A stretch of DNA of 64,000 nt from Mycobacterium sherrisii (GTDB taxonomy: Bacteria; Actinomycetota; Actinomycetes; Mycobacteriales; Mycobacteriaceae): assembly GCF_002102355.1 (NCBI RefSeq), contig NZ_LQPT01000084.1, positions 62,001 through 126,000 on the forward strand. Reading direction: 5' to 3'. Numbering within the stretch: position 1 is the stretch's first letter; every line of letters begins with the position of its first letter. Below, one piece after another: positions 1,045 through 48,122 of the stretch. Made by a program: the position numbers and the translations under genes. The notes below the pieces were generated by a model, which saw nothing but the letters and a program-made list of their open reading frames with translations, did not search any database and was not told where the DNA came from.

Positions 1045-1893
1045 GTGCTGATCGGTTTTCTCCTCGCGCTGGGTTGTTCGGTGTGTTACGGCGCGGCGTC
1101 GGTGCTACAAGCCGTCGCGGCTCGCTCGGTGGAAGCCGGCGGCACGTCCGGTGTGGACGCGGCCTTGCTGTTGCGCGCCATCCGTCAGTGGCGCTACCTC
1201 GCGGGCATCGGCCTGGACGGGCTGGGTTTCCTGCTGCAGGTGCTGGCGCTGCGCCTGGTGCCGATCTACGTCGTCGCCGCGGCGTTGGCCGCCTCGATCG
1301 CGGTGACCGCACTGGTGTCGGTGTGGGTGCTGTCGGCCCGATTGTCGCGGGCCGAGTGGACGGCCATCGGGGTGGTTTGTGCCAGCCTGGCCGCGCTGGC
1401 GGCCGCGGCCGGGCCCGGCCACTTCCGCCACGGCCCCGCCGGGCTGGGTTGGGCCCTGATCGGCGTGGTCGCCGCGCTGTTTTTGGGCGGTGCGACCGCC
1501 GGCTGGTTGCCCGACCGGGCACGCGCCCTCGCCCTGGGGCTCGCGGCCGGCACCGGGTTTGGTGTGGTGGAGATCGGGGTGCGTCTGCTCGACGAGATCG
1601 ATCCCACCAAGGCCGCCTTCTACACCGACCCGGCGTTGTACGCGGCGGCCGGTGGCGGCCTTGCGGGGTTTCTGTTGTTCACCTCGGCGCTGCAACGCGG
1701 ATCGGTCACCACCACCGTGGCCGCGATGGTGGTCGGAGAAACCATCGCACCCGCGCTGGTCGGGGTGGTGTGGCTGGGTGACACCGCTCGCGCCGGTTGG
1801 GGCTGGCTGGTCATCGTGGGATTCGTCGTCGCGGTGGCCGCGACGTTGCTGCTGGCGCGATTCGGCGAGGCGCCCAACGCAGCACCCGGTTGA
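1045..1893 (+). CDS. DMT/EamA-type multi-pass membrane protein
   Basis: The 282-residue product is almost wholly hydrophobic, with about nine to ten predicted membrane segments in two halves, as in drug/metabolite transporter (DMT) proteins. There is a short Arg-rich loop near residues 45-50 and a soluble loop around an LLDEIDPTKAAFY segment. Start is GTG 1045, 49 nt after the hydrolase stop; an overlapping short reading frame from ATG 1004 ends at 1051 and might couple translation. The substrate cannot be read from sequence. The 3' end overlaps the convergent acyl-CoA ligase gene by 83 nt, which is unusual. Confidence 0.7.
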   Translation: MLIGFLLALGCSVCYGAASVLQAVAARSVEAGGTSGVDAALLLRAIRQWRYLAGIGLDGLGFLLQVLALRLVPIYVVAAALAASIAVTALVSVWVLSARLSRAEWTAIGVVCASLAALAAAAGPGHFRHGPAGLGWALIGVVAALFLGGATAGWLPDRARALALGLAAGTGFGVVEIGVRLLDEIDPTKAAFYTDPALYAAAGGGLAGFLLFTSALQRGSVTTTVAAMVVGETIAPALVGVVWLGDTARAGWGWLVIVGFVVAVAATLLLARFGEAPNAAPG

Positions 1894-3529
1894 ACCACCG
1901 CGTTGCTCCTCCCGAAACCGGTTGCGCCGCAGCCGAAGCCGACTCAGCGACCGCGTAGGTGGTACCGCGCGGGGGTCGGCTCAGCAGGACACCACCCTGG
2001 GCGCTGATCCCGGCGGCGATCAGTTCGCGTTTGAGGATCTTGTTGGTGGCCGTGGCCGGCAGGTCGGCGTTGATGCGCAGGTAGCGTGGCCACGCTTTCG
2101 GCGACAGGTCCGGCTGCGCGGCCAAAAATTCCTCCAGGTCCGCAGCCGTCACGTCCATTCCCTCGTGCAGCACCAGTGCCGCCATCACCTGATCCCCCAC
2201 CCGCTCGTCCGGCACCGCGTACACCGCGACCTGGCTGACTTGGGGCAGCCGTGCCAAGATCCGCTCGATCGGCGCCGCCGCCATGTTCTCGCCGTCGACC
2301 CGCATCCAATCGGCGGTGCGACCGGCGAGGTAGATCCAGCCGTCGGTGTTGCGATAGGCCAGATCTCCGGTCCAATACATGCCGTGCCGCATCCGCTCGG
2401 CGGTGGCTTCCGGATCGTTGTAGTAACCGGCGAAGGGTCCCGCCCCCTGCGTATTGACCAGTTCGCCGACCGCCTCGTCGAAGTTGGTCAGCGCACCATG
2501 GTCGTCGAACTGCGCGACGGCGCACTCGCGCAGGGTTGTCGGGTTGTAGATGCCGACGCCGGGATACGGCTTGCCGATCGAACCGGGCGGAGTGCCGTCC
2601 ACCCGCACCACGATCACCGCGAACTCGCTGGACCCGAAGCTGTCGATCACCCGGCAACCGAAACGTCGGGCGAATTCCTCGATGTCGCGATCGGTGGCCT
2701 CATTGCCGAATGCGACGCGCAGGGTGGTGTCCGCATCGTCGGGCCGCTCCGGGGTGGCAAGGATCAGGGCCAGTGGCTTACCGACGTAATTGAAGTAGGT
2801 CACCCCGTAGCGGCGCACGTCGTCGAGGAAGCGTGACGGCGAGAACTTGGCGGGGACCATCGTCGCGCCGCTGCCGATCGCAACGGCCCAGCCGGCCGCG
2901 ACCCCGTTGGAGTGGAACAGCGGCATCGCCAGATAGCAGACGTCGTCGGCCGTGACGTCGTATTGACTGATCAAGCTGGCTCCGCACAGCACCGCCATGC
3001 CGTGCGCGAATCGCACCGCCTTAGGGTTGCCGCTCGTGCCGGACGTGAAAATCATCATCAGCGTGTCGGCCGCGACGACCTCGCGATGCGGGCGCAGTGG
3101 CGGGGCCGCGGCCACCGCCGCGTGATAGTCCGCGTTGGTGACGTTGAGAACGCGAATCCCGTTGAGTTCCAAGCCTTCCAGGATCGCCTGCTGGTCGTCG
3201 TCGACGAGCAGGAGCTGACAGTCGGACCGGTGGATGTCGGCGAGCAGCGCCGCGCCGCGCCGTGTGGTGTTGAGACCACACAAGACGTAGCCGCCCAGCG
3301 CCGCGGCCGCCATCGCACGCAGCATGGCCGGCGAATTGCCCAGCGCGGCACCGACATGCAGGGGGCGAGCCGGATCGGCAAGCGCGATCAGTGCGGCGGC
3401 CTCGGCTGCGGCCTCGGCCAGGTGCTCGCGCCAGGTCCAGATCCGGTCACCGTGCGCGACCGCCGGCGCGTCGTCGTTCCTGCGTTGCCGCAACAACTGC
3501 TGAACCGTTTCCGGTGCTCCTCCGGTCAT
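1811..3529 (-). CDS. acyl-CoA synthetase, FadD17-like
   Basis: Activates a carboxylic acid to its acyl-CoA through an acyl-adenylate. Visible features are the ANL P-loop (IFTSGTSGNPKAV), the YYNDPEAT region, the TGDLAYRNTDGW motif with its adenosine-binding Asp, the hinge DWMRVDGEN, and a C-terminal Lys in TNKILKREL. The spacing and wording resemble mycobacterial FadD17, which acts in sterol side-chain catabolism (from memory). The ATG at 3529 overlaps the stop of the monooxygenase gene as ATGA, so it is the last gene of the nine-gene operon. At 572 residues it is about 50 longer than expected: translation runs on past the usual GTTYAV end into a basic, Arg-rich tail that overlaps the convergent membrane-protein gene. 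Confidence 0.85.
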   Translation of the reverse strand: MTGGAPETVQQLLRQRRNDDAPAVAHGDRIWTWREHLAEAAAEAAALIALADPARPLHVGAALGNSPAMLRAMAAAALGGYVLCGLNTTRRGAALLADIHRSDCQLLLVDDDQQAILEGLELNGIRVLNVTNADYHAAVAAAPPLRPHREVVAADTLMMIFTSGTSGNPKAVRFAHGMAVLCGASLISQYDVTADDVCYLAMPLFHSNGVAAGWAVAIGSGATMVPAKFSPSRFLDDVRRYGVTYFNYVGKPLALILATPERPDDADTTLRVAFGNEATDRDIEEFARRFGCRVIDSFGSSEFAVIVVRVDGTPPGSIGKPYPGVGIYNPTTLRECAVAQFDDHGALTNFDEAVGELVNTQGAGPFAGYYNDPEATAERMRHGMYWTGDLAYRNTDGWIYLAGRTADWMRVDGENMAAAPIERILARLPQVSQVAVYAVPDERVGDQVMAALVLHEGMDVTAADLEEFLAAQPDLSPKAWPRYLRINADLPATATNKILKRELIAAGISAQGGVLLSRPPRGTTYAVAESASAAAQPVSGGATRWFNRVLRWAPRRIAPAATSRPPRRRIPR

Positions 3530-5121
3530 CGGGTGGTCCACACCAACCCGGCGTAGTCGTTGCGCGCGACCTCGTCGCAGTGCCGGCGGTAGCTGCCGAA
3601 TCCACCGATGTAGGGCATGAAGGTCCGTTTCTTGCCTTCGATGTTGGCACCCAGATACCACGACGAGGCCGCCCGGGGAAACAAGGTGCGCTCGGCGGCC
3701 TGGGCCACGTGCTCGGTCCAGCTCTGCGCGGCGTCCTGACGGGGCTCGACCTCGACGGCGCCCCGGCGTCGGGCGGCGTGCACCAACTCGACGACCCAGT
3801 CGACCTGGACCTCCGCGTGCAGGACCATGTTGGCCAGCACCGAGGGACTGCCCGGCCCGCTGATCGTGAACAGGTTCGGCAGGCCCGGCACCATCAGCCC
3901 GAGAAACGTCACCGGCCCGTCGGCCCACACGTCGCGCAGCCGGTGGCCCCGGGGCCCGCGCGGGTCGATTCGGGTCAGGGCTCCGGTCATGGCGTCGAAG
4001 CCGGTGGCGAAGATCAGCACATCGCATGGGTAGCTTGCCGCGGCAGTGCGCACCGCGTCAGCGGTAATCGTCTCGATCGGTTCGCGCCGCAGGTTGATCA
4101 GTTGCACGTTGTCGCGGTTGAAGATGGCGTAATAGCCGGCGTCGGTGCAGATCCGTTTGGTTCCGATCGGGTGATCGACCGGGATGAGATCGGCCGCGAC
4201 GACGGGGTCGGTGACGATCTCGCGGATCCGGTCCTCGGCGAATTTCCGTGCGACGTCGTTGGCGGCGAGATCGCTGGTTTGATCGGGGAAGGTCTTGGCG
4301 AACAGTACCCCGCCTTCGCGCCAGCGCTGCCACAGCGCTTCGGCCCGCTCTCGCGGGTCGGTATCGACGGCCTTCTTGTGGTAGGTGCCGTGCGGCGTCC
4401 CGGCCGGCGCGTAGGCCGACGCCCGCCGACGTTCGGGGTATTGCTCCTGGATCTGGCGCTGTTCCTCAGCCGACCAGGGCCGGTTCGGCATCGGGATGGT
4501 GTAGTTGGCGGATCGCTGGAATACCACTAGCTTTTCGGCCTGGGCCGCGACGATCGGCGCGAGCTGGATACCCGATGATCCGGTACCGATGAGTCCCACC
4601 CGTTTGCCGGCCAGCTCGGGGTCCTCCCGTGGCCACGCCGCCGTGAAGTACACCTCGCCCGAAAAGCCCTCGACGCCTGGCAGATTGGGACGGTTGACCG
4701 CGGACAGGCAGCCGGTGGCGCACAACAGGAACTGCGCCGCGTAGCTCTCGCCGGCGGCGGTGTCGACATGCCAGTGACCGTCGGAAAAAGCGGCGCCGAC
4801 GACGTCGGTGCCGAACAGATAGTGGCGGCGCAAGTCAAACCGGTCGGCGACATGACGTAGGTAGGCCAGGATTTCCGGTTGCGCGGCGAACCGCTCGCTC
4901 CACTGCCAGCTTCGCTGCAGCGCTTGGTCGAACGAGTAGGAGTAGTCGACGCTTTCGACGTCGCACCGTGCGCCCGGGTACCGGTTCCAATACCAGGTGC
5001 CACCCACATCGGGTGCCGCTTCGATCGCGGTCACCGACAGGCCAGCCGCCGCGAGCCGGTGCACGGCGTAAAGGCCGGCGAATCCGGCGCCGATGACGAT
5101 GACGTCGCTGACCCTTGTCAT
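3526..5121 (-). CDS. Baeyer-Villiger-type flavin monooxygenase
   Basis: FAD- and NADPH-dependent enzyme expected to insert oxygen next to a ketone to give an ester or lactone. Seen: first Rossmann motif GAGFAG at residues 11-16, second GTGSSG at 179-184, and the BVMO signature GGTWYWNRYPGARCD starting at 40. Length 531 is normal for cyclohexanone/cyclopentadecanone-type BVMOs. The class fingerprint FxGxxxHxxxW is present at 153-163, but its central His is Phe (residue 159). That His supports catalysis in characterised members, so activity may be altered. ATGA overlaps join it to the esterase upstream and the acyl-CoA ligase downstream. A BVMO next to an esterase suggests ketone to ester to acid plus alcohol. 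Confidence 0.85.
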   Translation of the reverse strand: MTRVSDVIVIGAGFAGLYAVHRLAAAGLSVTAIEAAPDVGGTWYWNRYPGARCDVESVDYSYSFDQALQRSWQWSERFAAQPEILAYLRHVADRFDLRRHYLFGTDVVGAAFSDGHWHVDTAAGESYAAQFLLCATGCLSAVNRPNLPGVEGFSGEVYFTAAWPREDPELAGKRVGLIGTGSSGIQLAPIVAAQAEKLVVFQRSANYTIPMPNRPWSAEEQRQIQEQYPERRRASAYAPAGTPHGTYHKKAVDTDPRERAEALWQRWREGGVLFAKTFPDQTSDLAANDVARKFAEDRIREIVTDPVVAADLIPVDHPIGTKRICTDAGYYAIFNRDNVQLINLRREPIETITADAVRTAAASYPCDVLIFATGFDAMTGALTRIDPRGPRGHRLRDVWADGPVTFLGLMVPGLPNLFTISGPGSPSVLANMVLHAEVQVDWVVELVHAARRRGAVEVEPRQDAAQSWTEHVAQAAERTLFPRAASSWYLGANIEGKKRTFMPYIGGFGSYRRHCDEVARNDYAGLVWTTR

Positions 5122-6092
5122 AGCGAGCCCATATTCGCGGCGCCTCGGTGCGTCGGCTGCAGCACCTCACCCAGGTCCGCGAAGATCAGCTGCCGCGCTG
5201 CCGCGGCCGGACCGAAGGACTCGATGGTCATGAAGCCGTGGAACAGGCCGGGAAAGTCGCGGTGCACAACCGGCACTTTCGCCGCGCGCAGTCGGCGGGC
5301 ATAGTCGCAGCCCTCGCTGTGCAGCGGGTCCAGGCCGGCGGTCACGATCACGGCGGGCGGCAGGCCTGCATGCGACTCCGCGCGTGCCGGGGCAACCAGG
5401 TAGGGCGGATCGAAAACCCTTGGTCCGCTGAGGTATTGATGCCAATACCATTGCATGGCCGTCCGGGTGTTGAAGTAACCGGTACCGAAGCGGTGGTAGC
5501 TGTCGGTATCGAAGGAGGGATCGATCGCTGGGTAGAGCAGCAGCTGGGCCGCGGGGCCGGCGACCGCGCGATCGCGACACATCAGCGCGGTGACCGCCGC
5601 CAGGTTGCCGCCGGCACTGTCCCCCGCCACCACGATGCGCCGCGGATCGATGCCCAACTCGTGGGCGTTCTCGACGACCCGGCAAAACGCCGCGAACGCA
5701 TCGAGCGCGGCCGCGGGAGCGGGATGTTCGGGGGCAAGTCGGTAGTCGACCGACACCACGACGGCCCGGGCGCCGCGGGCCAGGCTCCGGCAGAAGGCGT
5801 CATGGGATTCGATGTCGCAGAAGACGAATCCGCCGCCGTGATAAAAGACGACCGCGGGACGATCCGCGTCGGGTTCGCCGTGCGGGTGGTAGACCCGGAT
5901 CGGGATGGCGCCGGCGGGTCCCGGCACCGTGCGGTCGGTGGTGCGGCGGACCTCGGTGTGGTTGCCAGTCGGCACCCGGCGGGCGGCGACCGCGGCACGC
6001 GCCTGGGTAGCGGTCATGTGCTCGACGCGCGGGAACCCCGCGTTCAGCTGGTCGAGCATCGCCCGCACCGTGCCGTTGAGGGGATCGTCCAC
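5118..6092 (-). CDS. alpha/beta hydrolase, hormone-sensitive-lipase family esterase
   Basis: Carboxylesterase of the HSL (family IV) group. Seen: oxyanion motif HGGGF at residues 85-89, nucleophile GDSAGG with Ser159, an Asp in TAGLDPLHSEG and a late His in FPGLFHGF. Length of 324 residues is typical. GTG 6092 is preferred because GGAGG lies five bases upstream; the frame stays open further up but without a better start. The stop overlaps the start of the monooxygenase gene (ATGA), and 26 nt separate it from the DUF35 gene before it. Its likely role is hydrolysis of the ester or lactone made by the monooxygenase; this is inferred from context. Confidence 0.85.
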   Translation of the reverse strand: MDDPLNGTVRAMLDQLNAGFPRVEHMTATQARAAVAARRVPTGNHTEVRRTTDRTVPGPAGAIPIRVYHPHGEPDADRPAVVFYHGGGFVFCDIESHDAFCRSLARGARAVVVSVDYRLAPEHPAPAAALDAFAAFCRVVENAHELGIDPRRIVVAGDSAGGNLAAVTALMCRDRAVAGPAAQLLLYPAIDPSFDTDSYHRFGTGYFNTRTAMQWYWHQYLSGPRVFDPPYLVAPARAESHAGLPPAVIVTAGLDPLHSEGCDYARRLRAAKVPVVHRDFPGLFHGFMTIESFGPAAAARQLIFADLGEVLQPTHRGAANMGSL

Positions 6093-6118
6093 CTGCACCT
6101 CCGACCTCGCCGTTGAGA

Positions 6119-6532
6119 TCACGCCGGCCGGTATCTGAGCAAAGTGATTCCGGCCTCGGGCAGATCGTAGAACACCGGCCGCACCCGCATGCCGATTCGG
6201 ACGTCGTCCGGGCCGACCTCGACCAGCTCGGTGCTGATCCGGGGCCCGGCGTCCCATTGCACGACCGCCAGCAGTTGCGGCACGACGTCGGCCCACGGCG
6301 GACCGGTCGGCCGCCGGGCCACGGTGAAGGTGTACAGCGTTCCGGCGCCATTGATTTCGCGCCATTGCAGGTCGTCGGCCAGGGTGCCGGGAGCAAGGAC
6401 GCGAGGGTAGAAGACGTAGCGCTGCAACGACGGCGAGTACTGCACCCGAATCCGGTGCTGCGCCAGCACATCCCAGAAAGGTTGCGAAACCGGTGTGGGC
6501 TCGGGCACCGGAACCGGTTCGGTGGTCTGCAT
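6119..6532 (-). CDS. DUF35 OB-fold acyl-CoA-binding protein
   Basis: The 137-residue protein matches the DUF35 family, partners of thiolase-fold enzymes such as Ltp2. The N-terminal FWDVLAQHRIRVQYSPSLQR segment occupies the rubredoxin-like zinc ribbon, but the usual Cys pairs are missing and QYSPS stands where a CxxC normally is, so zinc is probably not bound. The OB-fold part (GTLYTFTVARR, PQLLAVVQWD) is well kept. Its ATG overlaps the stop of the thiolase-fold gene by one base (TGATG), which supports co-translation and a direct complex. Confidence 0.8.
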   Translation of the reverse strand: MQTTEPVPVPEPTPVSQPFWDVLAQHRIRVQYSPSLQRYVFYPRVLAPGTLADDLQWREINGAGTLYTFTVARRPTGPPWADVVPQLLAVVQWDAGPRISTELVEVGPDDVRIGMRVRPVFYDLPEAGITLLRYRPA

Positions 6533-7734
6533 CAGTCTCCCTGCATGATCAGTGCGACCTGCTCGCTCATGATGCCGCCGTTGCCGGTGACGAAGGCGGT
6601 GTGGCAGTCCGCGACTTGCGCGTCGGCGCCGCGTCCCATGAGTTGACGGGCGCCGTCGACGACATGGTGCATGCCGCCGGCCATCCCCGCCTGGCCAAAC
6701 GAAAGTTGGCCGCCGGCCGTGTTCAGCGGAAAGTCGCCGCGGTAGGTGAGATCGTGCTGGGCTACCCAGGACATGCCGGCGCCCTTGGCGCAAAAGCCGG
6801 CATCCTCCAAGGTCATCAGCACCGTGATCGTGTAGCAGTCGTAGATCGAGGCGACGTCGATGTCGGACCGGTTCAGCCCCGCCATGGCAAAGGCCCGGTC
6901 CGCAGCGCGGGCGATCGGGGTATTCAGCAGCTCGTCGGCGTACGTGGGGGTCTTGAATGCGAGATGTTCGCCAAACCCCTTGACCCATACCGGGCGGTGC
7001 CGGCCACGCCGGGCCAGGTCCGCGTTGGCCAACAGCACACCCGCTCCCCCGTGCACCCGCATCACCGTCTCGAGCAAGTGGATCGGGTCGGCGATCATGG
7101 GGCTGGCCAGGACTTCATCTGCGGTGATCGGCGTCCCGTGAAACACCGCGCCCGGATGCGCGCAGGCGTTGGTGCGCTGGTCGACCGCGATCTTGGCCAA
7201 CGCGGCGGGAGCGTAACCGAAGACGGCGGCATAGCGCTGCGCGATCTGCGCGTAGGGCGCATTCTGCCCCACGTTGCCATAGGGGATCTCGAATTCCGCC
7301 TGTGGCGACCCGTAGTTATTCGACGATGCCCCATACCAATTCGATGCGGCAGCCGGTCGTCGCCGTGATTGCGGCAAGGCCGCCGATCCGGGCACCACGG
7401 CAAGGGCGGCGTCGCAGATGCCGAGCTCGATCGCGGCGGCCGCCCGCCAGATCATGCCGGCCGACGTGGCCCCGCCCAAATCGACACGTTCACCGAAATC
7501 CAATGCCAGGCCCAAGTATTCGCACAGCGTGGCGGGGGCGAACATCGCGGACTCCGCCACGCCGTGCGTGAGCAAACCATTGATGTGCGACGGGTCGAGG
7601 CCGGCGTCGGCCACGGCCGCCTTCGCCAGCAACGCGTATTGGTCGAGGGTGAACCGCGGCGGCCCGGTCGGCCGGCGCTCGGCCGGTAATTCGGCGATAC
7701 CGACGATGGCCGCCTCGCCCCGCAGGCCCGTCAC
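6532..7734 (-). CDS. thiolase-fold lipid-transfer protein, Ltp2-like (probable retro-aldolase)
   Basis: A 400-residue thiolase-superfamily protein of the nonspecific lipid-transfer (SCP-x) type. It reads GGATSAG at residues 87-93, where true thiolases carry the nucleophilic Cys, and it has a YDCYT motif at 298-302, as in Ltp proteins. Ltp2 of the mycobacterial cholesterol pathway cleaves a 3-hydroxyacyl-CoA by retro-aldol chemistry and needs a DUF35 partner. Here a DUF35 gene follows with a one-base overlap, and no 3-hydroxyacyl-CoA dehydrogenase gene lies in the operon, so aldol cleavage rather than thiolysis is the better guess. Start is GTG 7734, overlapping the MaoC stop (GTGA). Confidence 0.8.
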   Translation of the reverse strand: MTGLRGEAAIVGIAELPAERRPTGPPRFTLDQYALLAKAAVADAGLDPSHINGLLTHGVAESAMFAPATLCEYLGLALDFGERVDLGGATSAGMIWRAAAAIELGICDAALAVVPGSAALPQSRRRPAAASNWYGASSNNYGSPQAEFEIPYGNVGQNAPYAQIAQRYAAVFGYAPAALAKIAVDQRTNACAHPGAVFHGTPITADEVLASPMIADPIHLLETVMRVHGGAGVLLANADLARRGRHRPVWVKGFGEHLAFKTPTYADELLNTPIARAADRAFAMAGLNRSDIDVASIYDCYTITVLMTLEDAGFCAKGAGMSWVAQHDLTYRGDFPLNTAGGQLSFGQAGMAGGMHHVVDGARQLMGRGADAQVADCHTAFVTGNGGIMSEQVALIMQGD

Positions 7735-8171
7735 GATGGACCTGCGCGCCGGGGCAGCTCGACCATGGCGGTGCCGGGCATCAGGACGGCGTCGTCACGG
7801 CGGCCGGCGATCTCGAGATCCACCAGCCCCGCGCCGTGCTCGGACACACGCTTGGCAGTGACCGTGCCGCCGAACGTCAGTGCCTGGCCGGGGAAGGCGG
7901 TCGCCCGGTTCTGCACCGAGAACGACACCAGGCGGCCGCGCCCGCCGAGCCAGCCGCCGAGCACGCGGGCCAGCAGCGCCGCTTGCAGGGGCCCATGCAC
8001 GAGCACGTTGTCGTAACCTTCGACATCGCGCGCCCAATCTTTGTCGTAGTGAATGCGGTGACCGTTGTAGGTGGCGGCGCTGAAGAAGAACAGCTGGGTT
8101 TCGTCGATGGTGACGGTCAGCTCGGGGATCTGCGCACCCACCTCAACGTCGTCGAAATACACCTGTGTCAT
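7731..8171 (-). CDS. MaoC-like enoyl-CoA hydratase subunit (ChsH1-like)
   Basis: Small hot-dog-fold protein of 146 residues resembling R-specific enoyl-CoA hydratases. The hydratase motif region reads SAATYNGHRIHYD: the motif His is present, but the usual catalytic Asp of GDxNP is replaced by Thr. The preceding gene encodes the complementary case, Asp present and His lost. In the cholesterol pathway ChsH1 and ChsH2 form a heteromeric hydratase, and the same arrangement is inferred here. It overlaps the thiolase-fold gene downstream by four bases and follows the other MaoC gene by seven. Confidence 0.8.
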   Translation of the reverse strand: MTQVYFDDVEVGAQIPELTVTIDETQLFFFSAATYNGHRIHYDKDWARDVEGYDNVLVHGPLQAALLARVLGGWLGGRGRLVSFSVQNRATAFPGQALTFGGTVTAKRVSEHGAGLVDLEIAGRRDDAVLMPGTAMVELPRRAGPS

Positions 8172-8178
8172 GGCATTC

Positions 8179-8679
8179 CTAGGGTCGGGCGATCATCGAG
8201 GTCGAGGCTTCGGCCACCAGGTCGCGGTGTTGATTCCGGTACACGCTGTGCCAGGTGACCAGGACGAATCTGCCGGAGCGGCCCAGCTTTTCGACGATCG
8301 ACTCGATGGTGCGGACCATCTCGATCTCGTCGCGGTGATACGCCGGCAGGTGGAAGGTGAAGGTTTCGCCGCCGGCCATCCGTTTTGGTGCACGGGGAAA
8401 CGCCAGCCCACCGGATACCGCGCCGGAGGATCCGTCCGGCCGCAGCGCATCAAGACGCGTCACGCCGAGCACCGCGTACTGCAGGAAAAGCGGTGGACAG
8501 ATGATGTCGCGGTAACCGTTGGCACGGGCGAACGCCGGATCGAAATACAACGGGTTGTGGTCCCCTACCGCTGCTGCCCACCGTTGCCAATCACGGTGCA
8601 GCACTTCGCCGGTCGCCGTGGCAGCAACCGAACCCACCTGCGCCGCCGCGGCGGCGTCGATCAGTGTGTCCTCAGTCAT
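8179..8679 (-). CDS. MaoC-like dehydratase, FAS1-type N-terminal hot-dog domain (ChsH2-like)
   Basis: 166 residues, single hot-dog domain of the FAS1-like dehydratase group. The motif GDHNPLYFD holds the catalytic Asp, but Tyr stands where the hydratase His normally is. ATG 8679 is chosen because it starts a natural N-terminus; it overlaps the acyl-CoA dehydrogenase stop by eight bases. In ChsH2 this type of domain is fused to a DUF35 domain, whereas here DUF35 is a separate gene two genes downstream. Probable partner of the next MaoC protein in hydrating an enoyl-CoA. Confidence 0.78.
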   Translation of the reverse strand: MTEDTLIDAAAAAQVGSVAATATGEVLHRDWQRWAAAVGDHNPLYFDPAFARANGYRDIICPPLFLQYAVLGVTRLDALRPDGSSGAVSGGLAFPRAPKRMAGGETFTFHLPAYHRDEIEMVRTIESIVEKLGRSGRFVLVTWHSVYRNQHRDLVAEASTSMIARP

Positions 8680-9793
8680 GGGCTTCCTCCAGGGTTTCCT
8701 CCAGCCAGGTTGCGGCGACGTCGGCCCCACCACCGAGAATCGAACCGGCCCTTGCCCGTTCGCTCCACAGGTGAAGATCGGTTTCCGTCACATATCCAAT
8801 CCCGCCATGCAGTTGATGGGCGTCCAGCGTGGCCAATCGTGCCGCCGCGCCCGCGTGTATGCGTGCGATGGCGGTTTCGCGGGTGGCCGTCCGCCCGCGC
8901 CCGATCCAGAACACGGCCGCGTGCGCGGCCAACCGGGCCGCGGCCACGGCGATGTGCATGTTGGCGACGAGATGTTGCGCCGCCTGGAAGGAGGCGATTG
9001 GGCGGTCGAATTGCCGGCGCAGCTTCGTGTACTCGACGGTGCGGTCCAGGACCGCTTCGCCGACACCGACCAGATCGAGTGAGCCTAAGGCCACCCCCGC
9101 GTTGGCCAGCCGGCGCAGTACGGGCCGGGTGGGCTGGCCGTTGTCGAGCACCGCCTCGCGCCCGACGACCACGTCGTCGAAGCACACCGTGCACGACTGG
9201 TGACCGCCCGCCATAGGAAGCGGCTTGACGGTCACGCCCGGTGCGCGGGCCTCGACGGCGAAGACCAGCACGCGGTCCCCCGCCGCAGCCGACACCACGA
9301 TGACGTCGGCGATGTCGGCGTCCGCGACGTAGTCCGCGGTTCCGTTGAGCCGCCACCGCGGCGGGGCGGCCTCGGCACGCAGCACGGCGGAGATATCGGC
9401 CGCATCGCGCGCGTTCCACAGCGCATGCGTGCCGCGGGCCTCACCGCGCACCAGCAGCGGCAGCCAGCCGCCCTTGACGTCCGGCGATCCCAGCTGGTCG
9501 ATGGCCAGCACCGCGGCCAACGTGCTGTGCACGGACGTCGGACACAGCGCACGCCCGGACTCGGTGTAGAACATGGCCAGGTCGGCGATGGCGCCCCCGG
9601 CGCCGCCGTACTCCTCGGCAACGGCGAGGCCGAAGACGCCCGCGTCCGCCAACGCCTGCCACAGCGCCGGGACGATCCGATCGGCGCCGGGTTCGCCGAG
9701 ACCACGCACCAGGGTCACCGGGCAGTGCGCGGCCAACAGCGCACGCAGCGAGGCCGCGAACGCGCGTTGCTCGGCGTCCAGGATCGGCTTCAC
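8672..9793 (-). CDS. acyl-CoA dehydrogenase-like subunit, probably non-catalytic
   Basis: 373-residue acyl-CoA dehydrogenase homologue with the family C-terminal segment QFDRPIASFQAAQH and HQLHGGIGYVTE. It has no Glu at the isovaleryl-type catalytic position (SLDLVG where LDLER is expected) nor at the medium-chain-type position (SILGGG where IYEG is expected). Such subunits occur in the alpha2beta2 acyl-CoA dehydrogenases of mycobacterial steroid degradation (ChsE1-ChsE2 type), where only one partner is catalytic. Its neighbour three bases upstream keeps the Glu, so the two very likely form one enzyme. Confidence 0.8.
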   Translation of the reverse strand: MKPILDAEQRAFAASLRALLAAHCPVTLVRGLGEPGADRIVPALWQALADAGVFGLAVAEEYGGAGGAIADLAMFYTESGRALCPTSVHSTLAAVLAIDQLGSPDVKGGWLPLLVRGEARGTHALWNARDAADISAVLRAEAAPPRWRLNGTADYVADADIADVIVVSAAAGDRVLVFAVEARAPGVTVKPLPMAGGHQSCTVCFDDVVVGREAVLDNGQPTRPVLRRLANAGVALGSLDLVGVGEAVLDRTVEYTKLRRQFDRPIASFQAAQHLVANMHIAVAAARLAAHAAVFWIGRGRTATRETAIARIHAGAAARLATLDAHQLHGGIGYVTETDLHLWSERARAGSILGGGADVAATWLEETLEEAHD

Positions 9794-9796
9794 CGG

Positions 9797-10999
9797 TCAC
9801 CGCCCATAGGAGGGCATCCCGTGGCCGCGCTGGGCGATCACATCGCGCAGCACCTCGTTGGTCCCACCGCCGAAACGCATCAGGGGTGCGGCGCGGTAGA
9901 GCCGCTCGAATTTTCCTGCCAGCGGCGCATTTTCGCTGCGATGCGCGAGCAGGCCGTCCGGGCCCAGCAGATCGAGTGCCAGGTCGGCGATGCGCTGCCG
10001 CAGTTCACTGGTGAAGATCTTCTCGACGCTGACCTCCACCGACGGCATCACGCCGCTGTCGAGCAGGGCGGCGGCCTCATAACCCATCAACGCCGCCACC
10101 TCGACGTCGGCCTCCGCCCGCACCAGGCGGCGGCGAAGGGCCACGTCGTGGCTCGGCACCGACCCGTCGCGCCGCGGTTGGCGGGCGAGTTCGCGTAAGT
10201 CGTCGACGGCGCGACGCAGATCGCCCGCATTGGTCAGCGCGCCCCGTTCCAGGTCGAGCGCACCGGTGATGTATTTCCAGCCGCGGTTGACCTCACCGAC
10301 CAGATTGCCCACAGGCACCCGCACGTCGTCGAAACGGACCTCGTTCGTCCGGTAGCCCGACCACGCGTAGAGCGGACGGATCTGGACACCCGCCGCGTCG
10401 ACGGGAACGATGATGACCGAGATTCCGCGATGGCGTTCGCTGCCGGGATCGGTACGCACGCAAAGCCATTCGTGGGTGGCCCGCTGCGCCGTGCTGTTCC
10501 AGATCTTGCTGCCGTTGATCACCCAGTGGTCGCCGTCGCGGGTCGCCCTGGTCCGCAGGTTGGCCAGGTCCGTTCCCGCGTCCGGCTCGGAATAGCCGAC
10601 GGCGCAGATCATTTCACCTCTGGCGATCAGCGGCAGCCATTCCATTTTGTTTTGTTCGGTGCCGTGTCGCATGATCATCGGGGCCACCGAGGTGACGGTC
10701 AGGTCCGGCCCGGGCACGCCCCAATATTCGAACTCGCTCATCAGCAGGTGCTGGTACACCGCCCCGAGGCCCAGCCCGCCGTATTCGCGAGGCCAATTCA
10801 GGCCGAACCAGCCTTTGGCACCGATCTTGCGGCGAAATCGCGTCACTTCGCCGCCAGGCAGCTCCAGATCGTGTTCGCCCAGTTCGGCTCGCAATTGCGC
10901 GGTGACGTTCTCGCGGAGGAACTCACGGACTTCGTCGAGCCACGCGCGTTGCCCGGCGTCGAGTTCGAAGTCCACTCCGGGCCACCTCATCCTTTCCAT
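9797..10999 (-). CDS. acyl-CoA dehydrogenase, catalytic subunit of a heteromeric pair
   Basis: 400-residue FAD enzyme introducing the alpha,beta double bond in an acyl-CoA. FAD/substrate segments are clear (GYSEPDAGTDLANLRT, NGSKIWNST). The catalytic base is at the isovaleryl-CoA dehydrogenase position, LDLER with Glu251, while the medium-chain position reads FGGGTNEV. This matches catalytic subunits of FadE26/ChsE-type heterotetramers. It is the first gene of the nine-gene operon; the start is ATG 10999 or the in-frame ATG 10990. The intergenic region towards the divergent TetR gene holds two palindromes that probably control it. Confidence 0.85.
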   Translation of the reverse strand: MERMRWPGVDFELDAGQRAWLDEVREFLRENVTAQLRAELGEHDLELPGGEVTRFRRKIGAKGWFGLNWPREYGGLGLGAVYQHLLMSEFEYWGVPGPDLTVTSVAPMIMRHGTEQNKMEWLPLIARGEMICAVGYSEPDAGTDLANLRTRATRDGDHWVINGSKIWNSTAQRATHEWLCVRTDPGSERHRGISVIIVPVDAAGVQIRPLYAWSGYRTNEVRFDDVRVPVGNLVGEVNRGWKYITGALDLERGALTNAGDLRRAVDDLRELARQPRRDGSVPSHDVALRRRLVRAEADVEVAALMGYEAAALLDSGVMPSVEVSVEKIFTSELRQRIADLALDLLGPDGLLAHRSENAPLAGKFERLYRAAPLMRFGGGTNEVLRDVIAQRGHGMPSYGR

Positions 11000-11088: not shown

Positions 11089-11117
11089 GCTGACGGCCGT
11101 CATTGACGCTCGTCAGC
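11089..11117. promoter_or_regulatory. tandem palindromic operator between TetR gene and catabolic operon
   Basis: TGACGGCCGTCA at 11091-11102 is a perfect 12-bp palindrome; TGACGCTCGTCA at 11104-11115 is the same except for its two central bases. They repeat with a 13-bp period, and outer GC/GC bases extend the symmetry to 11089-11117. The site is 22 nt before the TetR start codon and 90 nt from the divergent operon, a usual place for an autoregulatory TetR operator. Binding is inferred. Confidence 0.7.
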
Positions 11118-11138
11118 GAAATCGGGTAGGTTGCCGGC

Positions 11139-11735
11139 ATGCCGTCATCGGTGACGAACGCCAGGGAGGCGCAGCGACTGACGACCCGCGATCGCCTGTT
11201 CGACGCGGCCGTGGCCGAGATAGGGCAGTCCGGACTGGCCAAAGCGGACGTCGCCGCGATCGCCGCGGCCACCGGGGTCGCGCGCGGCACCTTCTATTTC
11301 CATTTCCCGACCAAAGAGCACGTGCTGGTGGAGCTGGAGCGGGCCGAGGAGGCGAAAATCGTGGCCAAGCTCGCCAAGACCCGCAAAGCCGGCGACCTGC
11401 CGTCGATGCTGAGGCTGCTGGTGCGTCAGGTCTTGGCCGCCGAGGAGCGGCTCGGGCCGGTGGTTTTCAGGGACATGCTGGCGCTGCATTTTTCGCCGAC
11501 GCGCCCGATCGAGGACGAAACCGCCGAGCACCCGCTCGCCGAGTTCGTGATCGCGGCGGTCGAAGACGCGCGGGCCGCGGGACGGGTGCCAAGCGACGCG
11601 GACCCCGCCGAACTGGGCGTGATCTTCATGACCGGCCTGTTCGCCTTGCTCGCCACCACCGCGGGCACCAATACACGTGTCGTCCTGTTGGACCGCTACG
11701 TCACGACCATCGTCAGGGGAATGGGGGCGCCGTGA
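11139..11735 (+). CDS. TetR family transcriptional regulator
   Basis: 198 residues with an N-terminal TetR helix-turn-helix: TRDRLFDAAVAEIG, then GLAKADVAAIAAATGVARGTFY as turn and recognition helix. The C-terminal half is a ligand-binding helical domain typical of the family. It is divergent from the nine-gene operon, with two operator-like palindromes between them, so it probably represses that operon and itself and is released by an acyl-CoA or ketone intermediate. The next gene overlaps its stop by four bases (GTGA) and is co-transcribed. Confidence 0.9.
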   Translation: MPSSVTNAREAQRLTTRDRLFDAAVAEIGQSGLAKADVAAIAAATGVARGTFYFHFPTKEHVLVELERAEEAKIVAKLAKTRKAGDLPSMLRLLVRQVLAAEERLGPVVFRDMLALHFSPTRPIEDETAEHPLAEFVIAAVEDARAAGRVPSDADPAELGVIFMTGLFALLATTAGTNTRVVLLDRYVTTIVRGMGAP

Positions 11736-12556
11736 CCGGCACCGGCATCGAGGGCTACCGAATCTTCCTAGCGCACCGCGACGGCGACGCCGACCTGCTG
11801 CACCGCCGGCTGGCCAACCGCGAGGAGTTCTTCACCTCGCTGGAGGCCGATCCGGTGCGCTCGGCCCGTCCGATCGACCGGCAGGTGTTTCTGCGGAATT
11901 TGCGCCGCCGCCGGCCCGAACCGGGCCTGTCGCGCGAGATGTTGTTCGCGTTGGCCACCGCGAAGCTCAACCAGGCGGAGCGGTTCGGGGTGGACTTGGG
12001 CGACACCTACGGGCGCATCGGTGGCGCCGACCAACCGCCGGAGCGCGTCTATCTCGCCCTCGAGGAGCACTACCACACTCGCCTATTGGCTTACGTGCTG
12101 GACGTTTTCGAGCTGCCGTACCAGGTGGTGATACCTGACTTGGTGTTGCGCCAGTTCGTCAAGATGCAGGTGTTTCTTCCCGAACGCGTCGGCTTCCCCT
12201 TCGTCGGCGCAGCGGAGATGGCGGGCTGCATCATGTTCGACGAATTACGCCGCGTCGGTGTCGAATTGTTCGCCGACGAACCGGCGGTGTCCGCGCGCAT
12301 CGACCTGCTCTACACCGAAATTCTCACCGACGAACTGGGCCGTGTCGGCTATTGCGCGGCCCGGTGCAGTGCTGCCGAGCGCCGGCTAATGCGTTGGCTG
12401 TACCCGCTTTTCGGCCGGCTCATCGCCCGCCAGACTGCTGAGATCAGCCTCCTGACCGACCGCGCGAAATTGCGTGCACGCCTCGATGTGCCCTTCGACG
12501 CCGACGAACTCGCCGCCGGGGTGCGGAACGAAACGTTCGTCGCCTCGCACCCGTGA
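11732..12556 (+). CDS. conserved hypothetical protein, possible ferritin-like/diiron fold
   Basis: 274 residues, mainly helical. An ExxH (Glu112-His115 in EEHYH) and a later EILTDELGR around 196-204 resemble the paired ExxH ligands of ferritin-like diiron proteins, but the second His is Arg204. An AEMAG...DEL segment lies between. This is only a weak structural hint and a metal site may be incomplete. GTG 11732 overlaps the TetR stop, so the gene belongs to the TetR transcript and probably to the same catabolic programme. Confidence 0.55.
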   Translation: MTGTGIEGYRIFLAHRDGDADLLHRRLANREEFFTSLEADPVRSARPIDRQVFLRNLRRRRPEPGLSREMLFALATAKLNQAERFGVDLGDTYGRIGGADQPPERVYLALEEHYHTRLLAYVLDVFELPYQVVIPDLVLRQFVKMQVFLPERVGFPFVGAAEMAGCIMFDELRRVGVELFADEPAVSARIDLLYTEILTDELGRVGYCAARCSAAERRLMRWLYPLFGRLIARQTAEISLLTDRAKLRARLDVPFDADELAAGVRNETFVASHP

Positions 12557-12874: not shown

Positions 12875-15577
12875 TCAGCGCCCGCCCTTGAGGCGAATCT
12901 TCCAGCGCACAAAGGTCAGGTAGGCGATGCAAAGCACGATCAGCATGCTGGTGTCCAACCACCACGCGCTGGCCGTATGGCGCCAGTGAGAATCCTTGGG
13001 CGACACCGGACCTGGTACCAGCTGATTGAGGTCCGCGGTCGACGCCGAGGCCGCAAAACCCCAGCGCGCTGGCGTCGCCCAGGACATCTGGTCCAGGCCG
13101 AGGCGTCCGGTGACCGGGATCATCCCGCCGGAGAAGACCAGCTGTGACATGACCGCCACCACCAGCAGGGGCATGATCTGGTCGTTGGATTTCGCGACGG
13201 ACGACAACAGCAGACCCAGCATCGCCGACGCGACGGTGGTCAGCGCGACGTCCACGAACAGCTCCAACCCGGGCCTGCCCAACACCACCGCGCCGTGCGT
13301 CGGTCCGCCCTTGCCGATCAGTGCGATGATGGTCACGATCGCGGACTGCGCGACCGCGAACACGGTGTAGACGCAGACCTTGGCCATCAGGTAGGCGGTA
13401 GTGGACAGGCCGACCGCCTGCTCGCGCAGGAAAATCGCGCGTTCACCGATGAGGTCGCGGATGGTCAGCGCCGTGCCCATGAACACCGCACCGACGTTGA
13501 GCAACACCAGGATCTGGCCCGGCTCGTTGGGCGCGGACCCCATCGGATTCGGCGTACCGAATCCGACGTCGCCGGGCACCGACATCGACAGCGAACCCAT
13601 GATGAACGGCAGCAGCGCCAGGAAGACGAAGTAGCCCCGGTCGGAGACGATCAACCGGACCTGCCGGCGCGCGATCGTGGAGAACTGCCGCAGCAGGCTG
13701 GTGTGCGACGGGTCGCCGATCTCGGCCGGCTCCTCTGCCGGCGGCGGGGGCGGCGGCGGACCGGTGCGTGCCAGGTACTTTGCCTTGGCGCCGTCCGGAT
13801 CGCCCGCCACCGAGCTGAAGATGTCGGCCCAGTTCGTGGTGCCCATCGCCGGGCCGATCTGGGCGGGCGGCCCGCAGAACGCGGTCTTGCCGCCGGGCGC
13901 CAGCAACAGCACCTGGTCGCAGACGTCGAGATAGGTCAGCGAGTGGGTGACCACCAGCACCACCCGGCCGGCGTCGGCCAATTGCCGCAGCATGGTCATG
14001 ACCTGCCGGTCCAGCGCGGGATCCAGGCCGGACGTCGGCTCGTCGAGGATCAGCAGCGACGGCCCGGTCAACAGCTCCAGCGCCACCGACGCGCGTTTGC
14101 GCTGACCGCCGGACAGCTTGTCGACGCGAGTGTGCAAGTGCTGGGTCATCTCCAGCTCCTCGAGCACCCGCGCCACCACCTGCTCACGGTCGGCCTTGGT
14201 GGTGTCCGGCGGCAGTCGCAGTTCAGCGGCATATCCCAGCGCCTGCTCGACCGTCAGCTGGCCATGCACGACGTCGTCCTGCGGGACCATGCCGATCCTG
14301 CTGCGCAGCGAGGCGTATTCGGCGTGCACGTTGTGGCCCTCAAAGGTCACCGTGCCCTTGGTGGGATGGGTGTAACCGGCCACCAACCGGGCGAAGGTCG
14401 ATTTGCCCGCGCCCGACGGGCCGATGACCGCCGTGAGCGTTCCGGGGCTGGCGGCCAGGGAGATCTCGTCCAGCAGGGTCTTGTTGTTTTCGATCGTCCA
14501 GGTGACCCCGCGCACGTCGAGGCCGCCGAGACGGGTCTGTGCGGCGGTGTCGGCGTCGCGCCGGGCCAGCTTGCCGTCGGCGAAGACCAGGTCGATGTTG
14601 CCGATGGTGACGACGTCGCCGTCCTTGAGCAGCGCGGAATCGACCCGCGCGCCATTGACGAAGGTGCCGTTGATGCTCCGGTTGTCCTGAATCTCCGTGC
14701 CGGCCGGGGTCGGTATCAGGGTCGCGTGATGCCGGGACGCGAGCACCTCGGGAATGACGATGTCGTTGTCGTTGGCGCGGCCGATCCGGATCGCCCCCGG
14801 TACGTCGGCCCCCGACCGCCCGGGCCGCAAAATTTTCATCATCGACGTCGCCAGGTTGGAGGCGTCACCACCCACCCGGCCGGTCATCGTGGTCGGCGTT
14901 TCGGCCGCTGGAGCCGGCGGCGCCGGTGCGGGTTGCGCGCGGTAGATGTGTGGTGTCGATCCGGTGGCGGGGCCGGCCGAATGCGTGCCGGTCGGGGAAT
15001 GCGGCGGGCTGGGCTGGGGGCCGGTTGCGTGCGTCGGCACCGGGCCGGACGGGGAATGCTGAGGTGGTCCGGAGGGCGGGCCCGAGGGCGGGCCGGGCTG
15101 CGCGCCGGTGGGCGGGTGTGCGGGCGAGGGCCGGGCGTGCGGCGGGGGTTGGGCCGGGCCAGGCCAGGCCGGACCGGTCGCGGGCCGGGCCCCAGCTAGC
15201 CGTGGCTCGCCGGCGTGGTTGACCAGCGGGATCGACGTCGTGGGGGGCGGGGTGCCCGCCGACCCCTGATGGCGACCGACCTCGAAGGTCAGCACGGGCC
15301 CATCGGGGTTGCCGATGTTGATTCGCTGGCCGTCGTGAATCTCGACGGCCGGTACCCGGCGGTTGTTGACATACAGACCGTTGAGGCTGCCGTTGTCGAT
15401 GGCGATCCAGCGGCCCTGGTCGAAGCGCACCAGTAGATGTATCCGGGAGATCAACGGGTGCGCGATGCGGACGTCAGCCCGCAGGTCGCGCCCGATGACG
15501 ACGTCGTTGCCGGGTGCGAAAGTCCGCTGGGATCCCTCGTACCGCACGGTCAGCACAGGTGGGGCTGGTCGACTCAC
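12875..15577 (-). CDS. FHA-domain ABC transporter, Rv1747-like
   Basis: 900-residue ABC exporter half-unit fused to phosphothreonine-reading domains. Order: FHA1 about 25-85 (VIGR, SRIH, NGSLNG), Pro-rich linker about 105-230, FHA2 about 264-320 (RIGR, SRHH, RSINGT), nucleotide-binding domain about 355-590 with Walker A GPSGAGKS at 386-393 and signature LSGGQRKR, then an ABC2-type membrane domain with about six segments. This order is that of mycobacterial Rv1747, which is phosphorylated in its linker by Ser/Thr kinase PknF and linked to lipooligosaccharide export. No PknF gene is adjacent here, but a PknE-type kinase lies about 37 kb away. Confidence 0.92.
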   Translation of the reverse strand: MSRPAPPVLTVRYEGSQRTFAPGNDVVIGRDLRADVRIAHPLISRIHLLVRFDQGRWIAIDNGSLNGLYVNNRRVPAVEIHDGQRINIGNPDGPVLTFEVGRHQGSAGTPPPTTSIPLVNHAGEPRLAGARPATGPAWPGPAQPPPHARPSPAHPPTGAQPGPPSGPPSGPPQHSPSGPVPTHATGPQPSPPHSPTGTHSAGPATGSTPHIYRAQPAPAPPAPAAETPTTMTGRVGGDASNLATSMMKILRPGRSGADVPGAIRIGRANDNDIVIPEVLASRHHATLIPTPAGTEIQDNRSINGTFVNGARVDSALLKDGDVVTIGNIDLVFADGKLARRDADTAAQTRLGGLDVRGVTWTIENNKTLLDEISLAASPGTLTAVIGPSGAGKSTFARLVAGYTHPTKGTVTFEGHNVHAEYASLRSRIGMVPQDDVVHGQLTVEQALGYAAELRLPPDTTKADREQVVARVLEELEMTQHLHTRVDKLSGGQRKRASVALELLTGPSLLILDEPTSGLDPALDRQVMTMLRQLADAGRVVLVVTHSLTYLDVCDQVLLLAPGGKTAFCGPPAQIGPAMGTTNWADIFSSVAGDPDGAKAKYLARTGPPPPPPPAEEPAEIGDPSHTSLLRQFSTIARRQVRLIVSDRGYFVFLALLPFIMGSLSMSVPGDVGFGTPNPMGSAPNEPGQILVLLNVGAVFMGTALTIRDLIGERAIFLREQAVGLSTTAYLMAKVCVYTVFAVAQSAIVTIIALIGKGGPTHGAVVLGRPGLELFVDVALTTVASAMLGLLLSSVAKSNDQIMPLLVVAVMSQLVFSGGMIPVTGRLGLDQMSWATPARWGFAASASTADLNQLVPGPVSPKDSHWRHTASAWWLDTSMLIVLCIAYLTFVRWKIRLKGGR

Positions 15578-47900: not shown

Positions 47901-48122
47901 GATCCGTTCCTTTCTGCCCGTCGTGGTGCGCGCCGCTGGCCCATATTAGTGGCCGACGGCTTCCTCCCCGGCAGGAATAGAACGTGTTACAGTGCTGCCG
48001 ATCCGCGACCGAGGCGCCGGTCGTCCGGGCATTGCAGGCAAGGAGGCCCGCATGGATCTCGCCGCGGTCCACTCGTGGACCCCCCGCACGGAATTGCCTG
48101 CAGCGCAACGGAATTCGGGACG

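Follow-up and report, generated by a model that had tools for sequence, protein, structure and literature searches.

A mycobacterial operon that pairs a Sal-type aldolase with a Baeyer-Villiger monooxygenase and may degrade the side chains of sterol-type acids

Why would a mycobacterium encode a Baeyer-Villiger monooxygenase (BVMO) and an esterase alongside an aldolase for acyl-CoA thioesters? This question is raised by an operon of nine genes from Mycobacterium sherrisii. It lies in a stretch of 64,000 nucleotides, which we call the window (positions 62,001 to 126,000 of NZ_LQPT01000084.1 in assembly GCF_002102355.1; contig C84 of the 5.56 Mb genome). Our answer, which we hold with a little less than even confidence, is that the operon degrades the side chain of a sterol-type (bulky, branched isoprenoid) carboxylic acid, and that the BVMO and the esterase act after the aldolase.

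A conserved operon of nine genes

An earlier note on this DNA had described nine tightly packed genes, and its gene order agrees with the open frames and the Pfam matches. The minus strand carries all nine frames, between positions 10999 and 1811. Listed in the order of transcription, they are:

9797..10999, minus strand: acyl-CoA dehydrogenase subunit 1 (ad1); Pfam acyl-CoA dehydrogenase; keeps the glutamate of the L-E-R motif; nearest solved chain 4x28_A
8672..9793, minus strand: acyl-CoA dehydrogenase subunit 2 (ad2), probably a non-catalytic partner; Pfam acyl-CoA dehydrogenase; no glutamate at the matching site
8179..8679, minus strand: MaoC subunit A (MaoC A); Pfam FAS1_DH region; dyad histidine replaced by tryptophan or tyrosine; similar to ChsH chains
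7731..8171, minus strand: MaoC subunit B (MaoC B); Pfam MaoC (24.6 bits, under the cut-off of 27); keeps His41, with Asn36 in place of aspartate; best solved match itaconyl-CoA hydratase
6532..7734, minus strand: predicted thiolase-fold retro-aldolase of the Sal/Atf1 type; Pfam Thiolase_C_1; Y298-D-C300-Y, Gln343, and Gln348; no nucleophilic cysteine
6119..6532, minus strand: DUF35 partner of the aldolase; Pfam OB_ChsH2_C; no zinc-binding cysteines
5118..6092, minus strand: esterase of the hormone-sensitive-lipase family; Pfam Abhydrolase_3; HGGGF, GDSAGG, Asp255, and His285
3526..5121, minus strand: BVMO; Pfam flavin monooxygenase domains; nearest solved protein a steroid monooxygenase; Phe159 at the fingerprint histidine
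1811..3529, minus strand: acyl-CoA ligase of the FadD1 family; Pfam AMP-binding; NCBIfam FadD1 model

From ad1 to the ligase, the junctions are a gap of 3 bases, an overlap of 8, a gap of 7, overlaps of 4 and 1, a gap of 26, and two overlaps of 4. (The overlap of 8 presumes the ATG at 8679 as the start of MaoC A; this start is the likely one, with GGAGG upstream, though one at 8733 is also open. Likewise, the final overlap presumes the ATG at 3529 as the start of the ligase. For the esterase, the start codon is uncertain.) Given this tight spacing, the nine genes are probably co-transcribed. As the note had stated, no 3-hydroxyacyl-CoA dehydrogenase is among the Pfam and NCBIfam matches listed for the nine proteins.

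The order ad1-ad2-MaoC A-MaoC B-aldolase-DUF35 recurs in mycobacteria, Nocardioides, Rhodococcus, and Amycolatopsis, so it is not due to chance. Our named loci are the best 80 of 350; they include close kin, and some of their contigs are cut. The residue counts below cover these 80 loci plus L119-L123 and L127 (leaving out L001-L038 and L124-L126), with L128, L129, and L130 removed as repeats of L056, L070, and L104. One comparison of the loci covered 26 chosen ones. In a wider search, 22 of 394 genomes from the class had a match at E 1e-120, and 21 of these 22 belong to the same genus.

The thiolase-fold protein is a predicted Sal-type aldolase

The earlier note had called the thiolase-fold protein Ltp2-like and had proposed that it cleaves the chain by a retro-aldol reaction. 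The kind of aldolase must be corrected. Its best solved match is CtSal (9myr_A; 434 bits, with 51% identity over 396 columns), as compared to 133 bits for Ltp2 (6ok1_A) and 31% identity to TcLtp2 over 370 columns. 9MYR is a complex of CtShyDUF35 and CtSal, and the part of its description that we drew on identifies Tyr302 and Cys304 of a Y-D-C-Y motif as the catalytic pair of CtSal, aided by two glutamines, with a glycine at the site of the nucleophilic cysteine of thiolases (PMC12329534).

The same residues are present in the window's protein and its relatives. Y298-D-C300-Y, Gln343, and Gln348 are conserved in all 85 distinct relatives. The nucleophile site, as placed by the alignment, reads L-G-G-A in both the window's protein and CtSal, and its glycine (Gly88) is likewise found in 85 of 85 distinct rows. 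(In L121, a cysteine directly follows this glycine.) So the note's claim that the thiolase cysteine is lacking holds for the nucleophile; another cysteine, that of Y-D-C-Y, is kept and is catalytic in Sal.

A tree of 34 aldolases agrees with this assignment. The window's protein belongs to a clade of 19 rows (support 100/99), and an adjoining clade of 9 rows (99/99) includes a second aldolase from the same genome, of the HBC type (see below). The fork that joins the two clades has support of 88/86, which is under the tool's support star. Both clades group with CtSal and apart from TcLtp2, which is the only row with the Ltp2 motif (Y-D-H-F); the other 33 rows have Y-D-C-Y. Among the named rows, those closest to the window's protein come from Mycobacterium montefiorense and M. 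triplex. (Row L117, from Rhodococcus, bears a cyanobacterial family label, which we take to be a labelling fault.) Because of these active-site residues and the tree, aldolytic cleavage by a protein of the Sal/Atf1 type, not of the Ltp2 type, is well supported.

The best solved match of the DUF35 protein is the other chain of the same complex (9myr_B). A Cys3His1 zinc finger is expected of the DUF35 partner of a Sal-type aldolase, but the window's DUF35 has no cysteines at all, and 79 of 82 distinct DUF35 rows have none or one. The DUF35 protein that accompanies the HBC-type aldolase in the same genome (L124, 11756-12166; 71% identical to the window's) has no cysteine either. The zinc finger is therefore gone in this group, and its loss may predate the split of the window and HBC-type operons.

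The dehydrogenases, the hydratase, and the ligase

The other acyl-CoA enzymes show patterns like those of steroid degradation, with some departures. ad1 matches 4x28_A (279 bits), which we take to be FadE26/ChsE4. The glutamate of its L-E-R motif (Glu251), which is the catalytic residue of these dehydrogenases, is kept in 78 of 78 readable relatives. ad2 has no glutamate at residue 232 or 233 in any of 80 rows. By these residues, the two proteins appear to follow the ChsE-type pattern of one subunit with the glutamate and one inert subunit.

In MaoC A, the dyad histidine is replaced by tryptophan (58 of 81 rows) or tyrosine (23 of 81) and is never present. The non-catalytic ChsH2 has a tyrosine at this site, so MaoC A fits an inert subunit of the ChsH2 type; its best solved matches are ChsH chains (31 bits). 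MaoC B retains His41 in 82 of 82 rows and has Asn36 instead of aspartate in 81 of 82.

The note had likened the ligase to FadD17. The NCBIfam model for FadD17 (NF005897) gives 568 bits, below its cut-off of 850; the ligase passes the model for FadD1 (NF009927) instead, with 951.1 bits and a cut-off of 800. It belongs to a group that comprises FadD1, FadD17, and CasI, the last of which is a steroid-22-oyl-CoA synthetase. (We considered whether fadD1 of M. tuberculosis might be the last relict of such an operon, and we do not claim this. Each of eight small genomes from the genus has a ligase at 60-66% identity, and another ligase of the M. sherrisii genome scores higher on the FadD1 model, at 1011.5 bits, than the window's ligase does.)

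The BVMO accompanies the aldolase

The nearest solved relative of the BVMO is the steroid monooxygenase of Rhodococcus (4aos_A, 604 bits), followed by phenylacetone monooxygenases and then by cyclohexanone monooxygenases. Type I BVMOs share a fingerprint (FxGxxxHxxxWP), a second motif ([AG]GxWxxxx[FY]P[GM]xxxD), and an active-site arginine. The second motif and the arginine are present in 59 of 59 readable rows, duplicates included, and a recount of four sites, among them Arg323, gave 58 of 58 readable distinct rows. In those 58 rows, the site of the fingerprint histidine is phenylalanine in 44, tyrosine in 9, and histidine in 5. Four of the five rows with histidine (L089, L106, L115, and L119) are from outside Mycobacterium. 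BVMOs of the window's type are thus natural cases for testing whether the fingerprint histidine is needed.

The esterase just reaches the threshold of the LipP1 model (350.3 bits, with a cut-off of 350). Its triad is intact in the readable distinct rows (Ser in 56 of 56, and Asp and His in 55 of 55 each), and HGGG is found in 57 of 57 rows, one of which is a duplicate.

Do the BVMO and the aldolase occur together? Across 148 genomes from the genus, including M. sherrisii itself, we found the aldolase (at least 75% identity) in 53 and the BVMO (at least 70% identity) in 33. Both are present in 32 genomes, the BVMO alone in 1, the aldolase alone in 21, and neither in 94 (p = 3e-17, Fisher test, kinship ignored). 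In 30 of the 33 cases, the BVMO and the aldolase share a contig and are no more than about 7 kb apart. In two others (G038 and G129), the BVMO is on a different contig, and the aldolase lies at a contig end. (The aldolase of G031 is a partial match, to residues 1-245, and the BVMO of G076 has an internal stop.) Because 32 of 33 genomes with the BVMO have the aldolase and 21 of 53 genomes with the aldolase lack the BVMO, the dependence runs one way, from the BVMO to the aldolase set. These figures fit both a BVMO that acts before the aldolase and one that acts after it.

The one BVMO of this type without an aldolase is in G113 (L127, 10069-11739), and its neighbors are an amidase, a short-chain dehydrogenase/reductase (SDR), YcaO, TfuA, and a P450. 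Also, 12 genomes have a second BVMO, with 53-55% identity, on the aldolase's contig and 15-30 kb away from it (G036, G100, G080, G017, G110, G046, G134, G129, G131, G001, G031, and G051). At that threshold, the M. sherrisii genome has no second BVMO.

At the level of loci, both the BVMO and the esterase were found, at 40% identity or above, in 53 of the best 80 of 350. The BVMO alone was found in 3, the esterase alone in 2, and neither in 22. In three of the loci with neither (L056, L065, and L070), the ligase follows directly after DUF35, as would be expected from a joint loss of the BVMO and the esterase.

The BVMO and the esterase might be an accessory pair that detoxifies ketones or esters, or the BVMO might have another activity, while the path proper runs from the ligase to the aldolase. 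The 22 loci that lack both, some of them on cut contigs, would fit this, as would the replacement of the fingerprint histidine by Phe or Tyr in 53 of 54 readable mycobacterial copies. But the second motif and Arg323 are invariant, and nearly every genome with this BVMO carries the aldolase. Furthermore, Rhodococcus DMU1 (L120) has a BVMO from a different subfamily, of the PtlE kind (669 bits, under that model's cut-off), and about 9 kb away it has an aldolase that is 58% identical to the window's. An accessory role thus seems improbable to us. (A second flavin adenine dinucleotide (FAD) protein of DMU1 has no BVMO motif in a pattern check. We dropped a plasmid of Vibrio alfacsensis as an independent case of an aldolase with a BVMO, as its FAD protein matched neither BVMO motif in the same check.)

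A proposed pathway and its alternatives

CYP125 is a family of sterol C26-hydroxylases, and 22 of the best 80 of 350 loci include a CYP125-type cytochrome P450, with at least 68% identity to the copy in L095. (The L095 protein is CYP125 by its solved relatives, with 648.8 bits to 2xn8_A.) CYP125-like genes number from 1 to 5 per genome in the 10 genomes tested, and all six of the mycobacterial ones have additional copies that are unlinked. In M. sherrisii, one such gene is at 72% identity and that of igr is at 66%; both are on contigs other than the window's. In L090, L091, and L108, a gene for a molybdopterin oxidoreductase (749 amino acids in L090) adjoins the operon-linked CYP125; L112 and several more loci have relatives of this gene at other places near the operon.

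A sterol-type substrate is the likeliest, because of the linkage to CYP125, the steroid-monooxygenase-like BVMO, the Sal-type aldolase, the FadD1-type ligase, and the paired subunits of the dehydrogenase and hydratase. The note's suggestion of a steroid-like substrate is thus supported. From the gene set and its order, their conservation, the active-site residues, and the links to CYP125 and to the aldolase, all of which we observed directly, we infer what class of substrate is degraded, in which direction the path runs, and each of the reactions. The ligase would form the CoA thioester of a sterol-type acid. The heteromeric dehydrogenase would introduce a 2,3 double bond, and the heteromeric MaoC hydratase would add water onto the beta carbon. 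The aldolase and DUF35 would then cut the C2-C3 bond to yield a short acyl-CoA and a carbonyl compound. If the beta carbon is branched, the carbonyl compound would be a ketone, which is a dead end for beta-oxidation. The BVMO would insert an oxygen beside the ketone, and the esterase would split the resulting ester to an alcohol and an acid. The substrate may be a C24-alkylated sterol (with a C26 acid being converted to a C24 ketone) or a C23 acid that yields a progesterone-like C20 ketone.

The note had put the BVMO and the esterase first: they would convert a steroid or terpenoid ketone to an acid and an alcohol, and the acid, once activated, would undergo aldolytic cleavage. One such ketone could be the C24 ketone that Ltp3/Ltp4 leave, which might be turned into a C24 acid and then used by a C24-type ligase. 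The esterase, the BVMO, and the ligase are the last three genes, with the BVMO and the ligase overlapping by 4 bases, and an SDR is encoded between the BVMO and the ligase in L096, L107, and L116. The ligase is related to FadD17, which is C24-specific, and other sources of acids could explain why 21 of 53 genomes have the aldolase without the BVMO. But this order leaves the aldolase's own carbonyl product unexplained, and the position of the BVMO is variable: in L090, it lies several kb beyond the ligase. Overall, we think this order possible but less likely than our own.

We favor a BVMO that acts after the aldolase because the aldolase makes a carbonyl compound and because of the BVMO's partners in relatives. 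In two Nocardioides loci (L089 and L106), genes for the BVMO, the esterase, an alcohol dehydrogenase, and an aldehyde dehydrogenase are consecutive, on the opposite strand and near the aldolase set. L115 has the BVMO, an esterase at 40% identity, and an aldehyde dehydrogenase, and in L138 both kinds of dehydrogenase are alongside the BVMO. On a Rhodococcus plasmid (L119), a single run includes the aldolase, DUF35, two SDRs, and the BVMO.

These partners would also fit the degradation, by the same chemistry, of a smaller acid of alicyclic or terpenoid type, for instance a cycloalkylacetic acid. The retro-aldol reaction would give a cyclic ketone, the BVMO a lactone, and the esterase a hydroxy acid, which the alcohol and aldehyde dehydrogenases would oxidize to a dicarboxylic acid. 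The model for this is the classical cyclohexylacetate route of Arthrobacter, which Ougham and Trudgill are said to have described in 1982. Besides the four-gene sets in L089 and L106, this idea can draw on the cyclohexanone monooxygenases, which are the third group of solved BVMO relatives, and on the SDR in L116, which is nearest to 4-hydroxycyclohexanecarboxylate dehydrogenase (195.7 bits, far under the cut-off of 400). In L089, L103, L106, L113, L115, L117, L138, and the plasmid L119, genes for class III CoA-transferases separate the dehydrogenases from MaoC A; they stand beside or in place of the ligase. (L103 has a ligase at 41-42% identity as well.) On the other side are the CYP125-type neighbors, the steroid monooxygenase as the best match of the BVMO, and the Sal- and HBC-type proteins as the nearest relatives of the aldolase. 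We give this alternative a rather low probability, below that of the reversed order.

Several observations weigh against a sterol-type acid with the BVMO acting last. CYP125 is absent from the window's locus and from the 49 named loci that are most similar to it; all 22 loci with CYP125 are among the 31 less similar ones (L088-L118). The class III CoA-transferases, an SBP_bac_5 transport protein in Nocardioides, and an ATP-binding cassette (ABC) transporter on the Rhodococcus plasmid would suit a smaller, more polar acid too. The Fisher test takes no account of shared ancestry, and close kin are among the best 80 of 350 loci. The window's BVMO lacks the fingerprint histidine and does not match FxGxxxHxxxWP. 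Among solved structures, ad2 is closest to isovaleryl-CoA dehydrogenase (104 bits, versus 95 and 68 bits for the steroid partners 6wy8_A and 4x28_D) and MaoC B to itaconyl-CoA hydratase (47 bits), neither of which is a steroid enzyme. The asparagine of MaoC B replaces a catalytic aspartate, so the His/Asp dyad of a ChsH1-type catalytic subunit is incomplete. Known Sal and Atf1 proteins act on a secondary alcohol, and besides acetyl-CoA their product is an aldehyde rather than a ketone. The cleavage of a C24-alkylated C26 acid would set propionyl-CoA free, and we know of no Sal-type enzyme that does so. In a search of the window for boxes of KstR and KstR2, the operon had neither. Finally, the main text of a phytosterol transcriptome study, in the part available to us, names no BVMO, for a strain that may or may not carry the operon (PMC6593523).

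Comparison with known side-chain aldolase systems

Two related sets are encoded elsewhere in the M. sherrisii genome. Contig C23 has a TetR regulator, a 741-residue acyl-CoA dehydrogenase, and an aldolase and a DUF35 protein that are 63% and 71% identical to the window's. By gene content, this appears to be the HBC gene set. The HBC operon of Mycolicibacterium neoaurum is atf1-chsH4-chsE6-kstR3, and Atf1 is required there for the retro-aldol cleavage of a steroid side chain at C22-C23 (PMC10398937). The second aldolase clade includes 8 other genomes that we compared. TetR, the long dehydrogenase, the aldolase, and DUF35 are together in 2 of them (L133 and L135); the dehydrogenase is present without a matched TetR in 3 (L136, L137, and L139), and 3 have just the aldolase and DUF35 (L131, L132, and L134). 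The window's operon shares with the HBC operon a Sal-type aldolase, DUF35, an acyl-CoA dehydrogenase, and TetR. But the HBC operon has a single long dehydrogenase and no MaoC pair, BVMO, esterase, or ligase, and its aldolase is in a separate clade. With two dehydrogenases and two MaoC proteins, the window's operon is outside the definition of HBC.

The second set, on contig C28, is igr-like as read from gene order (cyp125, dehydrogenases, ChsH2, ChsH1, Ltp2). The igr operon (cyp125-chsE1-chsE2-chsH2-chsH1-ltp2) and the window's operon have in common the dehydrogenase pair, a heteromeric MaoC hydratase, a thiolase-fold aldolase, and DUF35. The igr operon includes cyp125, as do 22 of the best 80 of 350 relatives of the window's operon. 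The igr operon has an Ltp2-type aldolase and a fusion of MaoC and DUF35, whereas the window has the Sal type and a free-standing DUF35, plus the BVMO, esterase, and ligase. With an HBC-type set on C23 and igr on C28, the window's operon is therefore the third such set in this genome.

The bile acid enzymes Sal and Shy (aldolase and hydratase) of Comamonas share the aldolase's catalytic residues with the window. In Shy, however, MaoC and DUF35 form a single, homomeric protein that has a Cys3His1 zinc finger (PMC12329534 and PMC11321319), whereas the window has two MaoC proteins and a separate DUF35 without the zinc cysteines. The steroid monooxygenase of Rhodococcus rhodochrous and the pdc cluster for progesterone are comparable in having a BVMO that makes testosterone acetate from progesterone. 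The excerpts of PMC12239570 describe the pdc cluster without an aldolase set, which the window's operon has. The Rhodococcus enzyme is the best solved match of the window's BVMO and, unlike it, keeps the fingerprint histidine. Ltp3 and Ltp4 are aldol-lyases for C24-branched sterols (PMC6273163 and PMC6593523, in part); they share with the window's system aldolytic cleavage for branched sterol side chains, a comparison of descriptions only.

We regard the operon as a variant of the known steroid side-chain aldolase systems, in which the aldolase is paired with a BVMO and an esterase. The note knew of no described pathway with this set. Consistent with that, the gene set does not appear in the open-licence papers that our searches listed, viewed mostly as titles and abstract openings, or in the available parts of PMC12329534, PMC10398937, PMC6593523, PMC6273163, PMC7807495, PMC11321319, and PMC12239570. 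We tentatively suggest, while recognizing that this is the more doubtful proposal, that the operon is a third mycobacterial machine for sterol side chains, beside igr/Ltp2 and HBC/Atf1. It would combine retro-aldol cleavage at a branched carbon with Baeyer-Villiger oxidation and ester hydrolysis of the ketone, encoded on the same transcript, with a BVMO lineage in which the histidine has become Phe or Tyr and with an aldolase partner that lacks the zinc finger. If so, side chains on which beta-oxidation stalls would have a bypass, and it would show what can become of the ketone left by aldolytic cleavage of a branched side chain. The titles and abstract openings that make up most of the open-licence literature we viewed describe no enzyme for this ketone. 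Deletion of this one operon would test the question directly. The aldolase, the steroid-type BVMO, and the esterase might also be of use in steroid manufacture.

Regulation and flanking genes

Two features upstream of ad1 suggest local control:

11139..11735, plus strand: divergent TetR-family regulator, probably a local repressor, as judged by Pfam and position
11090..11118, no strand: operator-like inverted repeat CTGACG..CGTCATTGACG..CGTCAG, between the TetR gene and ad1

The core of the repeat (GTCAATGAC, counted on both strands) occurs within 300 bases upstream of ad1 in all 14 relatives that have the TetR gene and in none of the 64 others. We rejected control by KstR or KstR2. When we searched the window with the consensus boxes for these regulators, the only KstR-like box, TAGAACGTGTTACA, was at 47978-47991, far from the operon, and 20 of 100 shuffles also had at least one such box.

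Two other genes lie beyond ad1. A protein of 274 residues (11732-12556, plus strand), whose gene overlaps the TetR stop, adjoins TetR in relatives too; searches of Pfam (at 1e-5) and of NCBIfam (at 1e-40) gave no match for it. A large protein (12875-15577, minus strand) flanks the operon in many of its nearest relatives. By eye, it seems to have FHA domains and an ABC transporter, and it is presumably Rv1747-like.

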